Of a DNA stretch of 64,000 nucleotides, positions 45,035-52,365 are shown one piece after another. The notes under the pieces are model-generated. The model made no database searches. It saw only the letters and a list, made by a program, of their open reading frames with translations, and was not told the origin of the DNA. Made by a program: the position numbers and the translations under genes. The number at the start of each line of letters is the position of its first letter. Position 1 is the first letter of the stretch. The DNA is from Candidatus Gemmiger faecavium (GTDB lineage Bacteria > Bacillota > Clostridia > Oscillospirales > Ruminococcaceae), in NCBI GenBank assembly GCA_019114415.1, contig DXFO01000002.1, forward strand, positions 1 through 64,000. Reading direction: 5' to 3'.

Positions 45035-46314
45035 TCAGTTGCCCTCCTCGATTTTGGCCACCGGCACATTGGCGTATTCGTCCGGCGGATCAAGGGGCAG
45101 TTTCTGCATGTACTCGTGCATGGCTTCGGCAACTTTTTTGCTGTATGCCACCGCCTCGACGACGGTGCGTGCGCCTTTGACCGCATCTCCCGAAGCAAAG
45201 ACGCCGGGCATGGTGGTACGGCCCACTTCGTCGGTCACAAACAGTCCCCGCTGGTTGATCTGGATCTGTTTTTCGCTGTCCGAAATGGTGGTGCGGGGAC
45301 CCTGGCTGATGGAGACGATGACGCTGTCCGCGGGATAGAGCATCTCCGTACCGGGCAGATCATTCAGGGTGCCGTCCTCCGTCTCCTCAAGATCCCGCAG
45401 GACCACGCCCCGGTCAGTGATCTCCACCGGCTTTTTGTTATACAAAAACTCCACGCCCTCCAGCTTGGCGTAGCTGGTCTCATAATCGCTGGCGGCCACT
45501 TTTTTGGTCACCGAAACGCAGGTCACATGGCGGGTACCGTGGCGGATGGCTGTACGTGCCACATCCATGGCCGCATTGCCCGCGCCGATGATGACCACAC
45601 GGTTGCCCAGATGATAGACATCCGGGTTTTGCAGGTAGTTGATGGCGTAATGCACATGGCCCAGGCTCTCTCCTTTGATATGCAGGGTATTGGGCCGCCA
45701 GACGCCGGTGCCGATGAAAATCGCCTTGTAGCCGTCGCGGAAAAGGTCCTCCAGTTTGAGGGCCTGTCCGATGTCGGTATTGGGACGGACCTTGATGTCC
45801 TTGAGGCGCAGGTGGCGGTATTCAAAGTCGTCCAGCACGCTTTTGGGAAGGCGGAATTCGGGAATGCCATAGCGCAGGACGCCGCCGATCTTATCGTGCG
45901 CTTCAAAGATGGTGACGTCGTACCCGTAGCGCGCCAGAATGACCGCGATGGTCAGACCCGCCGGGCCGGAACCGATGATGGCGGCCCGCTTGCCGTTGGG
46001 CTTTGCAGGCCCATGGACCATCTGGGAGGCATAGGTGGAGGAAATGTAATTCTCAATGACCGAAAAATGCACCGGAGAACCCTTGATGCCGCGGACACAA
46101 TGGCCCTCGCACTGATTTTCGTGATTGCAGACCAGGCTGCACACAGTGGTAAGAGGGTTGTTCTCAAACAGCATCCGCCCTGCCTCATTGAGTTTATTGT
46201 CTTTGAGCAGGCGGATGACTTCCGGGATGTTGGTGTGGATGGGACAGCCCTCCTGGCAGCGTGGTTTTTGCAGCCCAGGCAGAGATTTGCCTCATCCATA
46301 ACGTGCAGCGCCAT
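45035..46314 (-). pseudogene. GltD/NfnB-like NAD(P)-FAD oxidoreductase with a one-base frameshift
   Basis: Homologue of the glutamate synthase small subunit and related NADPH-dependent flavoproteins (SudA/NfnB type). The main frame (45035-46174 and upstream) has QCEGHC, the FAD motif IIGSGPAGLT, KIGGVLRYGIPEFRLP, the NAD(P) motif IIGAGNAAMD and the C-terminal GDAVKGARTVVEA. The N-terminus begins in another frame at ATG 46314 behind AAAGGGGAAG and reads MALHVMDEANLCLGCKN; the family continuation RCQEGCPIHTNIPEV is in the main frame. One base is missing near 46261-46270 (CCACGC for expected CCCACGC on the - strand). Restored, it would have ~426 residues and the full N-terminal Cys cluster. A sequencing error, a real mutation, or -1 slippage at C-AAA-AAC would all explain it. 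Confidence 0.85.
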
Positions 46315-46334
46315 ACAATTCTTCCCCTTTCCGC

Positions 46335-46487
46335 GCGGTTCCATCAGAAAACAAGCCCCTAATTCGGGAGCAAAGCGGCCGCTGCCGCCCCCCTTGTTTT
46401 GGGATGTTCCTTGCGCCCTTCGCACAGATTTTGCAGATTCAGATTGCATCAAAGTTGCAGACCTCTGCAAGGTTTGTCCATAACTCT
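46335..46487 (-). repeat. Short inverted-repeat element, copy C
   Basis: Diverged third copy, in reverse orientation, filling the gap between tmcAL and the GltD-like gene. Its right end (46335-46358) matches the reverse complement of the other copies' CTTTGTTTTCTTATGGAACCGC at about 20 of 23 positions. CAAAGCGGC-CGCTGCCG (about 46371) matches the interior of copy A, and the far end near 46460-46487 resembles the left end. Confidence 0.6.
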
Positions 46488-46492
46488 TTTTT

Positions 46493-47680
46493 TTATAATA
46501 ACACCGGTTTTGCGGTGAACGCAAGTCCCGCCGGCATGGTATGGACCCTGCAAAGCGCTGAAAAATCCACAAAATCGCTGTGCAGCCTGCTCAGCGCGGC
46601 GGATTCATCGGAAAGGCGGCTGAGTTCCGCCAGAGAGGTGGAGGCCGGGATCGCCGCATAGCGCAGCGTCCCCAAAGCGGCACGGCGCGCCCCCAGCACG
46701 TGCAGCCAGGGCGGCTGTTCCGGTACCTGTTCGGCTGTGACATTCATGGCTGCATCCAGCACCAGGCGGCGCAGACGGGCGTGAGGATAGCGCTTGGTTT
46801 TGAGCAGCGTATACAGGTCCTCTACATCCGCAGCTTTGCGGATGGCGGCATACAGACGGTTTTCCAGACCTTCCGAAAGGCCCCGCAGACCGGCCAGTTC
46901 CTCCGGTGTGCGGCAGCGCAGCCGGGACAGAACGGCGATGGAAAACTTCTGCATATCGGAGAGTTCTCCCCTGTCGACGGACTCCCGGTACAGAAGAGCC
47001 GCCCGGGATGGGACGTAGTCCTCCACTGCGGCAAGGCCCTGACCGGCGGCAAGCTCCCGGAGCTTGCTGGCCGACGCGATTTTGCGGCCCATGACTTCCC
47101 CGGTCCGGTCGTCATTATGCCCCGCCCCTACCCGGGGCAGCGGCAGAGGTTTCAGATGGCTGCCCTGGCGCAGAATGGCTTTGCAGTATTCCACGCCGAG
47201 GATATTGTTCGGCTGCTGGAGGAACTCTCCCATGCCGGGCACCAGCTGCTCCGCGGCGGCGGCTCTGGCTGCCGCAAAGGACATGCCCTTCCCCATCAGA
47301 CCGGACAGGCGCCGGGACAGTTCCGGGCTGTCCACCAGCTCCGCCGCACGCATCAACAGATCAGCGTCCGGGTTCTCGGCGCCAAAGGCAAGGGTATCAC
47401 ACCCCAGCGCCGTCAGCTGCGCTACCCCCGCCGCGGCAAAACCTTCCGCGCCCAGGCAGGCATAAGGTGCAGGCAGGCCCAGCACGATATCCGCCCCCGC
47501 GGCCAGGGCCGCTTCCGTCCGGACGCGGCTGGGCAAAATCGGGATGCCGCCCCGCTGGGTGGCACCGTCGCTCATGCAGACAGCGATTTTGCCGATCCCC
47601 TTTGCCCGCAGCATCCGGAACTGCTCCGCATGGCCGTTATGGAAAGGATCGTACTCGGCAATAATGCCCGCAAACTCCAT
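46493..47680 (-). CDS. tmcAL: tRNA(Met) cytidine acetate ligase TmcAL
   Basis: Acetylates C34 of elongator tRNA-Met from acetate and ATP. The 395 residues start MEFAGIIAEYDPFHNGH at ATG 47680, with AGGAGGTG upstream. The nucleotidyltransferase HNGH motif is intact, and a second conserved region reads RGGIPIL where relatives have QRGEPAI. The location beside acetate kinase, divergent from it, is common in clostridia. Confidence 0.92.
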   Translation of the reverse strand: MEFAGIIAEYDPFHNGHAEQFRMLRAKGIGKIAVCMSDGATQRGGIPILPSRVRTEAALAAGADIVLGLPAPYACLGAEGFAAAGVAQLTALGCDTLAFGAENPDADLLMRAAELVDSPELSRRLSGLMGKGMSFAAARAAAAEQLVPGMGEFLQQPNNILGVEYCKAILRQGSHLKPLPLPRVGAGHNDDRTGEVMGRKIASASKLRELAAGQGLAAVEDYVPSRAALLYRESVDRGELSDMQKFSIAVLSRLRCRTPEELAGLRGLSEGLENRLYAAIRKAADVEDLYTLLKTKRYPHARLRRLVLDAAMNVTAEQVPEQPPWLHVLGARRAALGTLRYAAIPASTSLAELSRLSDESAALSRLHSDFVDFSALCRVHTMPAGLAFTAKPVLL

Positions 47681-47732
47681 AGAAACACCTCCTGTTATGC
47701 GCAAAATATGCACCAGTGCGCCAATTTGCTTC

Positions 47733-47761
47733 TTGAAATGGATTTGCTTCCATTATATAAT
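47733..47761 (+). promoter_or_regulatory. Promoter of ackA
   Basis: TTGAAA (47733-47738), a 17-nt spacer and TATAAT (47756-47761), followed by AAGGAGG before the ATG. Confidence 0.88.
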
Positions 47762-47815
47762 AAAATAGTAATGTGCAAAAGGGGGTTGCCCCCGTATTAA
47801 GGAGGATTACCAAGT

Positions 47816-49027
47816 ATGAAAGTCCTGGTCATCAACTGCGGCTCATCCAGCTTGAAGTATCAGCTCATCGACATGGACGGCGAGAAAGTCCTGTGCAAAG
47901 GTCTGTGCGAGCGTATCGGCATGGAAAGCAGCATGATCACCCATGAAGCCAACGGCGAGAAAAAGACCACTCCCGCCATCTTCCCCACCCATACCGAGGC
48001 CTTTACCGAACTGGTCAAGAAGATGACCACCGGCGAAGGCAAGGTCATCGACAGCGTTGCTGAGATCGATGCCATCGGCCACCGCGTTGTCCACGGCGGC
48101 GAGAAGTTCAAGCAGAGCTGCCTGATCACCCCCGAGGTCGTTCAGGCCATCCGCGACCTGAGCCCTCTCGCTCCGCTGCATAACCCCGCAGCCATTCTTG
48201 GCATCGAGGCTTCCTACAAGGTCTTTGGCGAGGACAAGCCCAATGTTGCTGTGTTCGACACCGCGTTCCACAGCACCATGCCGCCGAAGGCCTATATGTA
48301 CGCCATCCCCTACGAATACTACGAGAAGTACGGCGTCCGCCGCTACGGCTTCCACGGCACCAGCCACAAGTACGTCAGCCACCGTGCTGCCGAGTTCCTG
48401 GAAGAGCCCATTGAGCGCCTGAAGCTCATCACCTGCCATCTGGGCAACGGTTCTTCCATCGCCGCGGTCGACCAGGGCAAGGTCGTCGATACCTCCATGG
48501 GCATGACCCCGCTGGCCGGTCTGATGATGGGCACCCGCTGCGGTGACCTGGACCCCTCCGTGGTCAACTACCTGAAATACAACCTGGAGATCACCGGCCA
48601 TCAGCTGGATGAGATCCTGAACAAGAAGTCCGGCCTGCTGGGCATCTCCGGTGTTTCCAGCGACAAGCGCGACGTCGAGGCTGCCGCCAAGGAAGGCAAC
48701 CAGCGCGCACAGCTGGCCAGCGACATGCTGAACTACCAGATCAAGAAAACCATCGGCAGCTACATTGCAGCCATGGGCGGCGTTGACGCCATCTGCTTCA
48801 CCGGCGGTATCGGCGAGCACGACGCGGACTCCCGCGCCAAAATCTGCCACCACATGGACTGGCTGGGCATCCGTGTCGACACCGACAAGAACCGTGATGC
48901 TCACAAGCAGAAATCCGACGTGGTCGAGATCACTGCCTGGGGTGCCCGTGTCCGCACCCTGGTCATCGAGACCAACGAAGAGCTGATGATCGCCCGCGAT
49001 ACCCGCGAAGTCATCGAAGGCAAGTAA
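47816..49027 (+). CDS. ackA: Acetate kinase
   Basis: Interconverts acetate plus ATP with acetyl phosphate plus ADP; in fermentation it yields ATP and acetate, or activates external acetate. The 403 residues carry the family signatures VLVINCGSSSLKYQL (start), HRVVHGGEKF, the catalytic VFDTAFHSTMP, RRYGFHGTSHKYV and CHLGNGSSIAAV. No phosphate acetyltransferase gene is in the window. Codon use is that of a highly expressed gene. Confidence 0.97.
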   Translation: MKVLVINCGSSSLKYQLIDMDGEKVLCKGLCERIGMESSMITHEANGEKKTTPAIFPTHTEAFTELVKKMTTGEGKVIDSVAEIDAIGHRVVHGGEKFKQSCLITPEVVQAIRDLSPLAPLHNPAAILGIEASYKVFGEDKPNVAVFDTAFHSTMPPKAYMYAIPYEYYEKYGVRRYGFHGTSHKYVSHRAAEFLEEPIERLKLITCHLGNGSSIAAVDQGKVVDTSMGMTPLAGLMMGTRCGDLDPSVVNYLKYNLEITGHQLDEILNKKSGLLGISGVSSDKRDVEAAAKEGNQRAQLASDMLNYQIKKTIGSYIAAMGGVDAICFTGGIGEHDADSRAKICHHMDWLGIRVDTDKNRDAHKQKSDVVEITAWGARVRTLVIETNEELMIARDTREVIEGK

Positions 49028-49057
49028 GCCAGCCGTTTGATTCTACACGCCCCGCAC

Positions 49058-49240
49058 AAAGCGCGAGCGACATAAGAAAACAAAGGTTCTGCAAGAACTG
49101 CGAAGCATCGCAAAACCGCTGCAAGGCGGCAGATGCAAGGCAGAGGGCCTTGTGCTCCTGTATGGAACACAAGGCCCGATAACACGGCAGATGCCGCTTT
49201 GCAGTCAGAGTTTTGCGGCTTTGTTTTCTTATGGAACCGC
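49058..49240 (+). repeat. Short inverted-repeat element, copy A
   Basis: The longest clear copy. Perfect 15-bp inverted repeats CATAAGAAAACAAAG (49071-49085) and CTTTGTTTTCTTATG (49219-49233) enclose 133 bp. Inner hairpins include CGCAAAAC/GTTTTGCG, GGGCCTTGTG/CACAAGGCCC (about 49145-49176) and CGGCAgaTGCCG. The outer flanks AAAGCGC.AGC (left) and GAACCGC (right) are shared with copy B. It lies between ackA and a kinase-like gene. Confidence 0.75.
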
Positions 49241-49287
49241 GCAAACAGCGGGGCGCGTTTTGTATCCATCCGGGGAGGGGATCTGAT

Positions 49288-49791
49288 TTGAAGCGTCTGA
49301 TCATGGTAAACGGAACCATGGGTGTGGGCAAGACCTCCACCTGCCGTGCGCTGCTGCCGTTGGTGGAACCTGCCGCCTTTCTGGACGGCGACTGGTGCTG
49401 GACCATGTCCCCTTTCATTGTGAACGACGAGACCAAGGCCATGGTACTGGATAACATCGCCTGTCTGCTCAACCGGTTTCTGGCTTGCAGCCAGTATCAG
49501 ACGGTGATTTTTTGCTGGGTCATGCAGCAGCAGGAAATTCTGGACGAGGTATTGCGCCGGCTTTCCCTGGAAGATGTGGCGGTATCCGTTTTCACCCTGA
49601 CCGCCACCGAGGAGGCCCTGCGGGCAAGGCTGGGTTCGGACATTGCCGCCGGGGTCCGGCAGCCGGATGTTCTGGAGCGAAGCTGCGCCTACCTTCCCCT
49701 GTACCAAGGAATGGACACCATCTCCCTGGATGTGAGCGGCCTTACCCCGCAGCAGGCAGCACAATGGATCGCGGAACACGCGCCGTTCTGA
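49288..49791 (+). CDS. Small P-loop kinase-like protein
   Basis: A 167-residue protein starting at TTG 49288, with GGAGGGG 9 bp upstream. It has Walker A GTMGVGKTS (~9-17), an LDGDW segment resembling the substrate site of small nucleotide/shikimate-type kinases, and LERSCAYLPLYQ near the end. The fold is probably P-loop kinase; the substrate is unknown. It lies downstream of ackA and repeat copy A and before a strong terminator. Confidence 0.75.
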   Translation: MKRLIMVNGTMGVGKTSTCRALLPLVEPAAFLDGDWCWTMSPFIVNDETKAMVLDNIACLLNRFLACSQYQTVIFCWVMQQQEILDEVLRRLSLEDVAVSVFTLTATEEALRARLGSDIAAGVRQPDVLERSCAYLPLYQGMDTISLDVSGLTPQQAAQWIAEHAPF

Positions 49792-49816
49792 CCCGCCGCC
49801 CATTCAATTGCCAATC

Positions 49817-49884
49817 AAAAAGCCGGGACATCGTATCTTCGCACACCCCCTGACAGGGGCGCGGAGACGATGTCCCGGCTTTTT
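49817..49884. terminator. Strong bidirectional terminator
   Basis: A perfect 18-bp stem, AAAAAGCCGGGACATCGT (49817-49834) and ACGATGTCCCGGCTTTTT (49867-49884), with an inner CCCCtgacaGGGG hairpin. It separates the convergent kinase-like and mazF genes. Confidence 0.93.
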
Positions 49885-49921
49885 GCCGTTCTTGTTGATT
49901 GCGTTTATGCGGGGGTGTTTC

Positions 49922-50293
49922 TCACTGGCTTTGGAGGCCATTTTGTGCCGAAAGCCCCATGGAGACCTCCAATGCTTCGTCCACGCGGCGCATATCGTCC
50001 GGAGGAATGCAGCCCGCCTTTTCCCGCAGGCGGCGCTTATCCAGCGTTCGGATCTGCTCGGTCAGGATGATGCTGTCCTTGGCCAGGCCGCAGCGATCGG
50101 CACGCACGCCGATATGGGTGGGCAAACGGTTTTTATCCTGACGGGAGGTGATCGCCGCGGCGATCACGGTGGGACTGTGCCGGTTGCCGATGTCGTTCTG
50201 AACGATAAGTACCGGCCGCACTCCCCCCTGCTCCGAGCCCACAACGGGGCTGAGATCGGCGTAGAAAACTTCTCCCCTGTGTACTTCCATCAT
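49922..50293 (-). CDS. Type II toxin, MazF/PemK family endoribonuclease
   Basis: A 123-residue protein of the MazF/NdoA (EndoA) family, a sequence-specific mRNA interferase. Motifs RGEVFYADLSPVVGSEQGGVRPVLIVQND, TVIAAAITS and ILTEQIRTLDKRRL are all typical. The start ATG 50293 lies 6 bp after GGAGG; a second ATG follows at once. No MazE-like antitoxin precedes it: the upstream gene is an acyltransferase, and only a promoter-sized gap of 73 bp lies between. Confidence 0.92.
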   Translation of the reverse strand: MMEVHRGEVFYADLSPVVGSEQGGVRPVLIVQNDIGNRHSPTVIAAAITSRQDKNRLPTHIGVRADRCGLAKDSIILTEQIRTLDKRRLREKAGCIPPDDMRRVDEALEVSMGLSAQNGLQSQ

Positions 50294-50332
50294 GCGGTGC
50301 CTCCCTGTACTGTGATGCAAATTTCTTTGCTA

Positions 50333-50361
50333 ATAGTATAAGCAGGAAGGCACGTCTTCAA
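50333..50361 (-). promoter_or_regulatory. Promoter of the mazF-like gene
   Basis: On the - strand TTGAAG (50361-50356), a 17-nt spacer and TACTAT (50338-50333). It begins just after the acyltransferase stop, so mazF is probably transcribed alone. Confidence 0.65.
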
Positions 50362-50366
50362 TCACT

Positions 50367-51488
50367 TTACGAAAACATTTTGCCAAGTCCGGCTGCCAGC
50401 TCGTCTCCTTTGCGGCAGAGCGCGGCAAACAGGCGGGTATTTTCCAGTGGACGAATGAGCAGCCGGGTACGGATCAGATCGATCACGGTACAGCCAACAA
50501 AAACGCCGGCAATAACAAACAGCGCATACCACGCCGAACCAGGATGCTGTGCCGAATCAAAAACGCCGTTCCACAAAATCCCCATCACTGCCGGGGTCTG
50601 ATGGATGATATAAACGCCCAATGTTGCGGAGGACACGGTATTGATTGCCCGCACGCTGCCCAGGGGCAGATTTTTGAAAAAGAAGAAGAAGGCCAGCGCA
50701 CAGAACAGATTGGGCGCACAGCACAGTGCCGTGCGGTAGTATTCCAGATACTGCATGGGCTTGCCGCCGACGCCCTGCCACAGAGCCGTCCCCCGCAGAA
50801 CCGTCAGCGCTACGGTAAAAAGCAGGGCCAGAAACGCCGCCCGGCGTTTTTGAAGAAACCGGGAGAGGGCGTTGTCCGGGTAAAGGCGCAGATACCCTAC
50901 CAGGAGATACTCATACGCAAAGGTCCAGAGCACATCGGAGAATACGCCGTCCTCGGCAAAGAGAGTGGAATACCCAACCAGCAGCACACCGAACACCACC
51001 AGCAGGCCCCGCAGCGTCTGACGGGTGGCTGTGCGCAGCACCAGGTTGAGCACCGGGGCAAGCAGCAGCAACACCACGTAGGCCGCCACAAACCAGAGCT
51101 GTTTGGTGCTGACCGGGAACATCGCCCAGCGCAGCGTGCCGAGCCCGACATCGCTGCCCGGCGCAAAGAAGCACAGTACCGTCAGCGGCACCGTGTACAG
51201 CCAAAGGCTGAGCCACAGGTTGAGCACCCGCCGGGTGTGAAAGGGTTGTCCGCACAGAAACCAGGCGCCGATCATGACAAAAATGCTGCATCCGATGCGG
51301 GAACCTGCCCCCAACAGGGCAAAAAACAGTGCATGGGGCAAGGTATCGTACACCGCGGCGCCGCTCTGCCCCGCGTAATGGTCCGCAATGATGAACAGCA
51401 TACAGACAATGCGCAGCAGTTCCAGACCGCTCTGCCGCCCGCCGGTCTTTTGCGCCGTTTGCGGGCGCTGCAAAACCGCAGTAGCCAT
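50367..51488 (-). CDS. Membrane acyltransferase, acyltransferase-3 family
   Basis: A 373-residue polytopic protein with about ten hydrophobic helices. The N-terminal GLELLRIVCMLFIIADHY stretch, with its His, is the active-site region of acyltransferase-3/OafA/WecH-like proteins. It probably adds an acetyl or similar group to a surface polysaccharide or lipid. The ATG overlaps the acpS stop by one base (TAATG), behind AAAGGAGGGG. Confidence 0.88.
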   Translation of the reverse strand: MATAVLQRPQTAQKTGGRQSGLELLRIVCMLFIIADHYAGQSGAAVYDTLPHALFFALLGAGSRIGCSIFVMIGAWFLCGQPFHTRRVLNLWLSLWLYTVPLTVLCFFAPGSDVGLGTLRWAMFPVSTKQLWFVAAYVVLLLLAPVLNLVLRTATRQTLRGLLVVFGVLLVGYSTLFAEDGVFSDVLWTFAYEYLLVGYLRLYPDNALSRFLQKRRAAFLALLFTVALTVLRGTALWQGVGGKPMQYLEYYRTALCCAPNLFCALAFFFFFKNLPLGSVRAINTVSSATLGVYIIHQTPAVMGILWNGVFDSAQHPGSAWYALFVIAGVFVGCTVIDLIRTRLLIRPLENTRLFAALCRKGDELAAGLGKMFS

Positions 51489-51877
51489 TATGCCCCTCCT
51501 TTCTCGTTTTGCTCAAGGATGGCAAAGGCACAGGCCAGCCCTGCCTCATGGGTAAGGGAAAGATGGGCGGTCACCCGGTTCTGCTGCGCCCAGGCAGCGG
51601 CTTTGCCTTCCAGGGCATAGCAGGGCGCCCCCGACGGCGCACGCAGCACGCCGATCTCCCCCAGAGCAAATCCGCCCAGGCCAGTGCCGCAGGCTTTCAG
51701 AAAGGCTTCTTTGGCGGCGAAGTTTGCCGCTGCCGTCTCCGCCCGCGCCTTGCCGTTGCGGGCAAGGATCAGTTCCCGCTCTCTGGCGGAAAAGACCCGG
51801 TCCAGAAACACTTCCCGCTGTATACTTTTTTCCATCCGTGACACTTCGCACAGATCTGTTCCAATGCCCAATATCAA
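51488..51877 (-). CDS. acpS: Holo-[acyl-carrier-protein] synthase
   Basis: Transfers 4'-phosphopantetheine from CoA to acyl carrier protein. I place the start at TTG 51877 (129 residues), because GGAGG lies 8 bp upstream and the family start ILGIGTDLCEV follows at once. Motifs GIGTDLCEVSRM and FAAKEAFLKACGTGLGG bind metal and CoA. Longer readings run into the repeat element upstream and have no ribosome site. Confidence 0.93.
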   Translation of the reverse strand: MILGIGTDLCEVSRMEKSIQREVFLDRVFSARERELILARNGKARAETAAANFAAKEAFLKACGTGLGGFALGEIGVLRAPSGAPCYALEGKAAAWAQQNRVTAHLSLTHEAGLACAFAILEQNEKGGA

Positions 51878-51898
51878 GGTGTTTTCCTCCCCCGGCCC

Positions 51899-52006
51899 AA
51901 AGCGCAGGCAGCATAAGAAAATGGAGGTTCTGCAAGAACTGCTCTGCATCGCAAAATCGCCGCGTTGCAGTTAGAATTCTGCAGCTTTGTTTTCTTATGG
52001 AACCGC
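51899..52006 (+). repeat. Short inverted-repeat element, copy B
   Basis: A 108-bp copy. Left arm CATAAGAAAATGGAG (51912-51926) and right arm CTTTGTTTTCTTATG (51985-51999) match at 12 of 15 pairs. Shared with copy A are GGTTCTGCAAGAACTGC, GCATCGCAAAA, TTGCAGT.AGA and the flanks AAAGCGC.AGC and GAACCGC. It lacks the ~75-bp interior of copy A. It lies 22 bp upstream of the acpS start, in the opposite orientation. Confidence 0.75.
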
Positions 52007-52365
52007 TTCAGAACCGGCATGTTTTTCCGACATTATTATATGTATTGTACCATGCCGCCGTCGGAAAAGATACCCCCGACGGCGCAGTCTGATCCGTCCG
52101 GGCGGACGGCCAAAAGACCTCCGTTTCTTTTTGACCCTTGTTCGATGTTTTTTGACGAACCGCCGGCTGTTTTCCCGATTTTTGGTATCCCGGCACGATT
52201 GGAGACGAAAATGTGTGAGGGATTTCACACAACTTCAAAGGACTACCCCAGAATTGCCCCAAAACTTTCACAAACAACTCCTATAATCGCCCATAGAATC
52301 GTATTGGCAGGCCGGCGGACAAGTGTCTTGCCGGCCGTCAAATTGAGAAAAGGAGTGAATGTGCT
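52007..52365. other. Divergent intergenic region before the Gld-like operon
   Basis: About 360 bp without a supported gene. It holds TATAAT at 52282-52287 on the + strand, with no good -35, and a stable leader hairpin GGCCGGC (52310-52316)/GCCGGCC (52330-52336) with inner GACA/TGTC pairing and no T run. A TATAAT on the - strand (52041-52036) could serve acpS. Confidence 0.4.

Follow-up and report, generated by a model that had tools for sequence, protein, structure and literature searches.

A mobile palindromic repeat family, for which we found no name, occurs in Gemmiger and some related genera, and the loops of transcription terminators are a preferred home for it. We studied it in a 64,000-nucleotide stretch of Candidatus Gemmiger faecavium (positions 1 to 64,000 of contig DXFO01000002.1, assembly GCA_019114415.1; hereafter, the window), in which three copies, A, B and C, are present and copy A lies within the terminator of the acetate kinase gene ackA. 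The element is probably a non-autonomous DNA resembling miniature inverted-repeat transposable elements (MITEs), moved in trans by a hairpin-recognising enzyme into the loops of hairpins, above all those of intrinsic terminators. The copies in the window, and the gene and terminator arms that surround copy A, are listed here.

49058–49243, + strand: copy A, a full-length element (186 bp) that folds into one branched hairpin; profile match E = 4e-61; missing in the sister species G008.
51899–52009, + strand: copy B, the same element minus its middle; blocks shared with A; profile match in two pieces (E = 3e-12 and 1e-10); absent in G008.
46330–46418, − strand: copy C, a diverged short copy; profile match of its right part, E = 9.5e-6; absent in G008.
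47816–49027, + strand: ackA, host of copy A through its terminator; Pfam PF00871, E = 3.9e-155.
49048–49055, + strand: left arm of the ackA terminator, separated from its partner by copy A; an 8-bp perfect arm of a terminator that is intact in G008.
49248–49255, + strand: right arm of the same terminator, with TTTT after it at 49258–49261; the arms re-pair in the fold of the filled site.

The first-pass annotation, made from the letters of the window alone, had proposed the family from these three copies, and a profile built from 49 family copies recovered all of them; it gave no further match in the window at E < 0.1 besides reverse-complement matches inside A and B. The limits needed revision. 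The proposed starts of A (49058) and B (51899) stood, and their ends were moved, to 49243 rather than 49240 in A and to 52009 in B. Copy C held as a reverse-strand member, but its proposed limit at 46487 is too far because the comparison with G008 ends the inserted piece at 46418; with a start at 46330 or 46335 it measures 84–89 bp, the junction being ambiguous by a few bases. It lies upstream of a pyridine-nucleotide oxidoreductase gene and is diverged on its left side. The resemblance of A and B beyond their ends was borne out by common blocks of 82 nt at 78% identity and 48 nt at 90%, as were the fold-back arms of A (CATAAGAAAACAAAG and CTTTGTTTTCTTATG), which lie just inside the element ends and pair at 15 of 15 positions. 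The quasi-palindrome extends beyond the ends to the whole element, with copy A matching its own reverse complement over profile positions 14–180.

These similarities are not due to chance, given both the pattern counts in the window and the number of copies in the genome. With up to three mismatches, TTTTCTTATGGAACC matched the window five times, a count that no shuffle reached (0.92 expected), and GGTTCTGCAAGAACTGC three times (0.11 expected); one three-mismatch match in each list falls outside copies A–C and looks like chance. The family is also not confined to the copies first seen, as 37 places in the same genome (2.55 Mb in 75 contigs) match copy A at E ≤ 0.003, counted after adjacent pieces were merged by hand and including some mere fragments. 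Similarity persists beyond the terminal arms in a proper alignment, with a mean column identity of 86% over the 49 copies. The commonest form of the element measures ~186 bp, within an overall range of roughly 60–290 bp, and the element is gene-less, overlapping open reading frames (ORFs) being of chance size.

Comparison with relatives revealed that the element moves, as G008 has none of A, B and C at the corresponding sites, whose flanks are 81–87% identical. The empty sites of A and C leave a few bases in doubt, and the site of B (152 bp in the window versus 44 bp in G008) is too diverged for an exact junction. The best junction came from a copy at locus L106 that is missing in L237, where the flanks are 98% identical, nothing was lost and 0–1 nt is repeated. 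Another copy, L091, is missing in all three relatives whose contigs reach the site (a fourth, L233, stops before it), and each of the three carries a terminator hairpin there, two of which were folded. Two copies at unrelated places in the C. Gemmiger faecavium genome, L003 and L007, are 98.9% identical, and at one site, with a gene behind it that we take to be gltX, the same copy is found in two species as 188-bp and 285-bp forms. Absence was also seen in the L096/L106 comparison, with diverged junctions; the L065/L100 pair, in which local identity is short, was not used as an empty site.

The target of copy A can be read directly from the sister species. In G008, the ackA terminator is intact, with a 12-pair stem, a GCAC loop and a T tract, and in the window both of its arms flank copy A, which places the element in the loop. 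Across 76 copies, the 30-mer flanks paired better with their own partner than with permuted partners (mean of −15.5 versus −12.5 kcal/mol; s.d. of permuted means, 0.37), 17 of the 76 lying beyond the 5% quantile of the control and 10 beyond the 1% quantile. A stricter test required a perfect stem beginning no more than 12 nt from both element ends. Of 75 copies, 18 had arms of at least 7 bp (permuted mean of 1.9; maximum of 7 in 300 permutations) and 16, or 21%, had arms of 8 bp or more (permuted mean of 0.68; maximum of 4 in 300). By comparison, 2.4% of 22,410 sampled intergenic positions reached 8 bp, which overstates the background, since the sampled loci included elements that had not been masked. 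In the genera g57, g28 and g60, 8 of 18 copies had arms of at least 7 bp against 0.89 when permuted (maximum of 5 in 2,000), in a test that omitted L277, which has no end pattern, and that handled copies unevenly: L284 was entered, and L270, L275, L280, L289, L290, L294 and L295 were omitted as the same copies as L137, L125 and L118, as partial copies or as insert-bearing copies.

The arms vary between sites, and the empty sites examined have them even though the element is absent; they are therefore part of the target. In predicted folds of filled transcripts, the split arms paired again (at least 75% of pairs) in all 18 copies with arms of at least 7 bp, because the element closes on itself. 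The position in terminator loops, and the spread to other genera described below, go beyond what the first-pass annotation had noted.

From the outside in, the element folds into an imperfect outer stem of ~7 pairs with one bulged base, the CATAAGAAAACAAAG/CTTTGTTTTCTTATG stem, two small side hairpins on the left and a long hairpin. The alignment suggests that a tandem G-A step likely separates the first two stems. Compensatory changes support this fold: in the 49 copies, 32 of 63 pairs changed on both sides, compared with 12.3 after shuffling (none of 500 shuffles as high), and 92.0% of cells pair, with a variant in which the second side hairpin is opened scoring about equally (31 of 61 pairs; 92.7%). 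Among 24 sequences from five genera, double changes were found in 46 of 69 pairs versus 31.3 after shuffling (again none of 500 as high), with a covariation score of 0.425 versus 0.177 and 36.9–46.1% of cells paired when slid, and on one measure, further pair types, 17 of 500 shuffles did as well; all of these statistics come from related copies, and the alignment tested in the second case was also the one used to predict its structure. Across the 49 copies, cells with A-C mismatches (84) are about as common as those with G-U pairs (69), which argues against selection on one RNA strand. In the mixed-genus set, for which the fold was chosen for that strand, G-U pairs number 74 and A-C mismatches 49. 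The outer stem varies by genus, with GCGCG, GCCCCTC, GCCGCAC and GCGGTGGT types.

Several size and stem variants were also observed. Seven copies of ~285–290 bp (L016, L079, L101, L108, L119, L135 and L142) bear ~100 additional bases, arranged as small hairpins, at the tip of the long one, and two copies from genus g60 (L294 and L295) have an insert at the same place and stretches in common with these long forms, such as GGGC.CATCTG and GCCCCACTGGGGC; because of this shared place and these shared stretches, the long form may be the older. At the other extreme, very short forms of ~45–90 bp (L027, L029, L183, L186, L188, L189, L190 and L191) retain little beyond the outer stems, and several stand directly before a ribosome-binding site, as though deletions had trimmed the hairpin from its tip. 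In genome G093, the copies L272, L282, L286, L288, L291 and L292 have an outer stem of either GGTGAG/CTCACC, which is fully paired, or GGTGAG/CGAACC.

Judged by the called flanking genes, the copies examined lie between genes. The arrangement of these genes around the element (E) was mixed: of 72 copies, 26 were >E>, 19 <E>, 16 <E< and 7 >E<, with one side undecided in the remaining 4. According to gene calls and flanks read by eye, some copies, C among them, occupy 5′ leaders, with a TATAAT-like box on one side and the start codon on the other.

To describe the distribution of the element, we searched genomes at several taxonomic depths. It was present in 19 of 35 Gemmiger genomes, including that of the window, at E ≤ 1e-5; 12 genomes taken from elsewhere in the order, outside the family, gave no such match. 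A family-wide sample gave matches at E ≤ 1e-3 in 10 of 297 genomes and 6 of 126 genera, Gemmiger included. Genera g57, g60, g28 and g96 match copy A at 68–88% identity and, with a g57 copy as the query, yielded 3–9 matching pieces per genome; the match in g38 spans 24 bases only and had no counterpart with the g57 query. The exact 19-base right end was found in 45 stretches from Gemmiger, Subdoligranulum, Ruthenibacterium, Faecalibacterium and uncultured Clostridia or Oscillospiraceae. A phage or plasmid carrier was considered and rejected: neither 50,697 phage nor 72,556 plasmid records contained an element match, the right-end 19-mer had no match in viral contigs, and the left 17-mer matched 12 viral stretches in a chance-like manner (best profile score, 4.9 bits).

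In the mechanism that we favour, a putative enzyme would act in trans, recognising hairpins instead of base sequence. The element would enter the loops of target hairpins, chiefly intrinsic terminators, and also other intergenic places such as 5′ leaders, and its insertion would leave little or no target duplication. By folding, the element's hairpin would bring the split terminator arms together, and transcription could still stop; because the arms would be rejoined by the element's own hairpin, insertion would do little harm in the cell.

Several observations weigh against this mechanism. The strict 8-bp test was failed by 59 of 75 copies, including B, whose site has no clear terminator, and C, whose empty site has no hairpin when judged by eye; some of the 59 have weaker arms. 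That a filled terminator stops transcription is a prediction from folding only. Some short direct repeats at the element ends exceed permutation, for instance four 5-mers versus 0.78 and, at one offset, 14 2-mers versus 7.1 (the best of 256 tests, z = 3.3), in a test limited to the 57 copies with ends fitting the search patterns; a short target duplication may occur at part of the sites. No single duplication length stands out among these 57 end-aligned copies, and the junction of C permits ~0–3 nt. As these signals are weak and the best junction repeats no more than 1 nt, the clear target-site duplication that had been thought worth looking for is unsupported.

The search for a mover also speaks against the mechanism. 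Y1 transposases do not track with the element among the 35 Gemmiger genomes (9 of 19 with it, 8 of 16 without). Neither do IS1182 transposases, which occur in 1 of the 19 carriers and in 5 of the 16 non-carriers, and the ends of the sole full-length IS1182 copy (AAGGGGCTGTCGG) are unlike those of the element. We therefore rejected both a Y1/REP-type and an IS1182-type mover. No long copy with element ends was seen in the near-complete genomes G008 and G044, because nearly all matched ends have a partner within 300 bp (12 of 13 and 6 of 7, respectively), although fragmented genomes could hide one. The two lone ends in G008 and G044 are two-mismatch matches, one of them belonging to a known 125-bp copy, and an autonomous copy was accordingly rejected for these two genomes. 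Lone ends in fragmented genomes, at 15 places in seven genomes, are short forms, half copies, remnants or chance when read by eye, without a survey of the surrounding ORFs. The earlier suggestion of a MITE moved by a transposase elsewhere thus stands in that the element is MITE-like, gene-less and present in many copies, whereas no transposase with matching ends was found.

Other explanations account for parts of these data. The element could be borne by RNA or single-stranded DNA, a folded transcript or single strand being moved by a reverse transcriptase or HUH-type chemistry instead of a duplex excised by a DDE enzyme. Hairpin loops, the targets here, are single-stranded in both RNA and extruded DNA, the best junction has little or no target duplication, and the conserved fold, with its long closing stem, two small side hairpins and long hairpin, is that of a single strand. 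We nevertheless consider this route unlikely: Y1 transposases do not follow the element, and a resemblance between its fold and retron RNAs is only putative. Random intergenic insertion followed by selection, in which insertions that break promoters or stems are lost and those in loops survive, would fit the intergenic position of all examined copies, and a hairpin placed in a loop does leave the stem foldable. Harmless positions outside loops are far commoner, however, with 21% of copies but 2.4% of the sampled intergenic positions passing the 8-bp test, making this scenario improbable.

A conserved regulatory RNA, such as a leader, an attenuator or part of a terminator, retained for its effect on neighbouring genes, would explain the strong covariation, the copies in 5′ leaders close to start codons and the lean towards G-U in the mixed-genus set. 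It is contradicted by the element's absence from orthologous sites in close relatives, by the mixed gene contexts over 72 copies and by A-C mismatches being as common as G-U pairs in the 49-copy set. Against Rfam 15, only a tRNA in the window reached a cut-off, every match in six loci searched at E ≤ 5 was under its family cut-off, and no group II intron matched in the window or these loci. Given the empty sites, the mixed contexts and the lack of a clear strand bias, we regard a functional leader or attenuator RNA as very improbable. A processing or termination signal, the other function raised in the first-pass annotation, is likewise unsupported, as the element enters terminators that exist without it, occupies other intergenic sites in mixed gene orientation and has base-pair changes without a clear strand bias.

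The surroundings of the copies in the window include several other features. In the oxidoreductase ORF downstream of copy C (45035–46174), the first part of the Fer4_20 domain appears to be missing, as the match begins at profile position 61. A stop interrupts the frame upstream of this ORF (46174–46312); either the gene has a frame break or the assembly is in error here. A PemK/MazF-like toxin-family gene lies at 49922–50320 (PF02452, E = 3.5e-34), and a strong, terminator-like inverted repeat free of the element is present at 49816–49885 (27-nt arms, 89% complementary, with 16 nt between them). Outside the window, L265 contains at 362–481 a ribosomal protein L10 leader that scores 41 bits, slightly below the cut-off of 44, and is unrelated to the element.

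Among known systems, the nearest precedent in way of working, for a good part of the copies, is that of IS1272 and TnSha1, which share a hairpin target and insertion without clear duplication. In PMC4923244 and PMC5678879, these staphylococcal elements of the IS1182 family are described as entering DNA hairpins, several of them terminators, without sequence specificity or target duplication, and as deleting part or all of the stem-loop on insertion. They are autonomous or composite and remove the stem-loop, whereas the Gemmiger element keeps both arms. The retained stem, the different ends and the lack of association with the transposase set the element apart from the IS1182/IS1272 group. Like bacterial MITEs, as treated in PMC10969869, it is short and gene-less with inverted ends, many copies and internal size variants; unlike them, it has no clear duplication or found parent, a far more elaborate conserved fold and a position in terminator loops.

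The element is also palindromic, intergenic and linked to hairpins, as are the REP/BIME sequences associated with RAYT transposases, but it is 186 bp long instead of 20–40 bp, with no GTAG tag seen and no Y1 association. REPs are themselves targets of some insertion sequences. Group IIC introns target terminator hairpins too, but insert after the hairpin and carry a ribozyme, whereas this element inserts in the loop and matched no ribozyme. Rickettsia palindromic elements are found largely inside genes, in frame, unlike the Gemmiger element, which sits between genes. They nonetheless resemble it as mobile palindromes of ~150 bp. PMC10969869 mentions these elements. Among the matches listed in a search of the open-access literature, no paper dealt with this repeat. 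A less probable reading is that the family represents a new class, in which a conserved branched single-strand fold, moved by an enzyme or as RNA or single-stranded DNA, enters terminator loops almost bluntly and leaves terminators still able to close, its outermost stem changing by genus and possibly taking over the arms of the last host hairpin.

Known examples of mobile elements that can occupy a regulatory signal and leave its fold intact are scarce. In this family, what is targeted is a structure, the terminator loop; the divided stem can close again around the inserted DNA; and several genera with different outer stems show the same arrangement. Two questions can now be tested: how transposition machinery could recognise a hairpin instead of a sequence, and whether inserted DNA is safe in the loop of a terminator.

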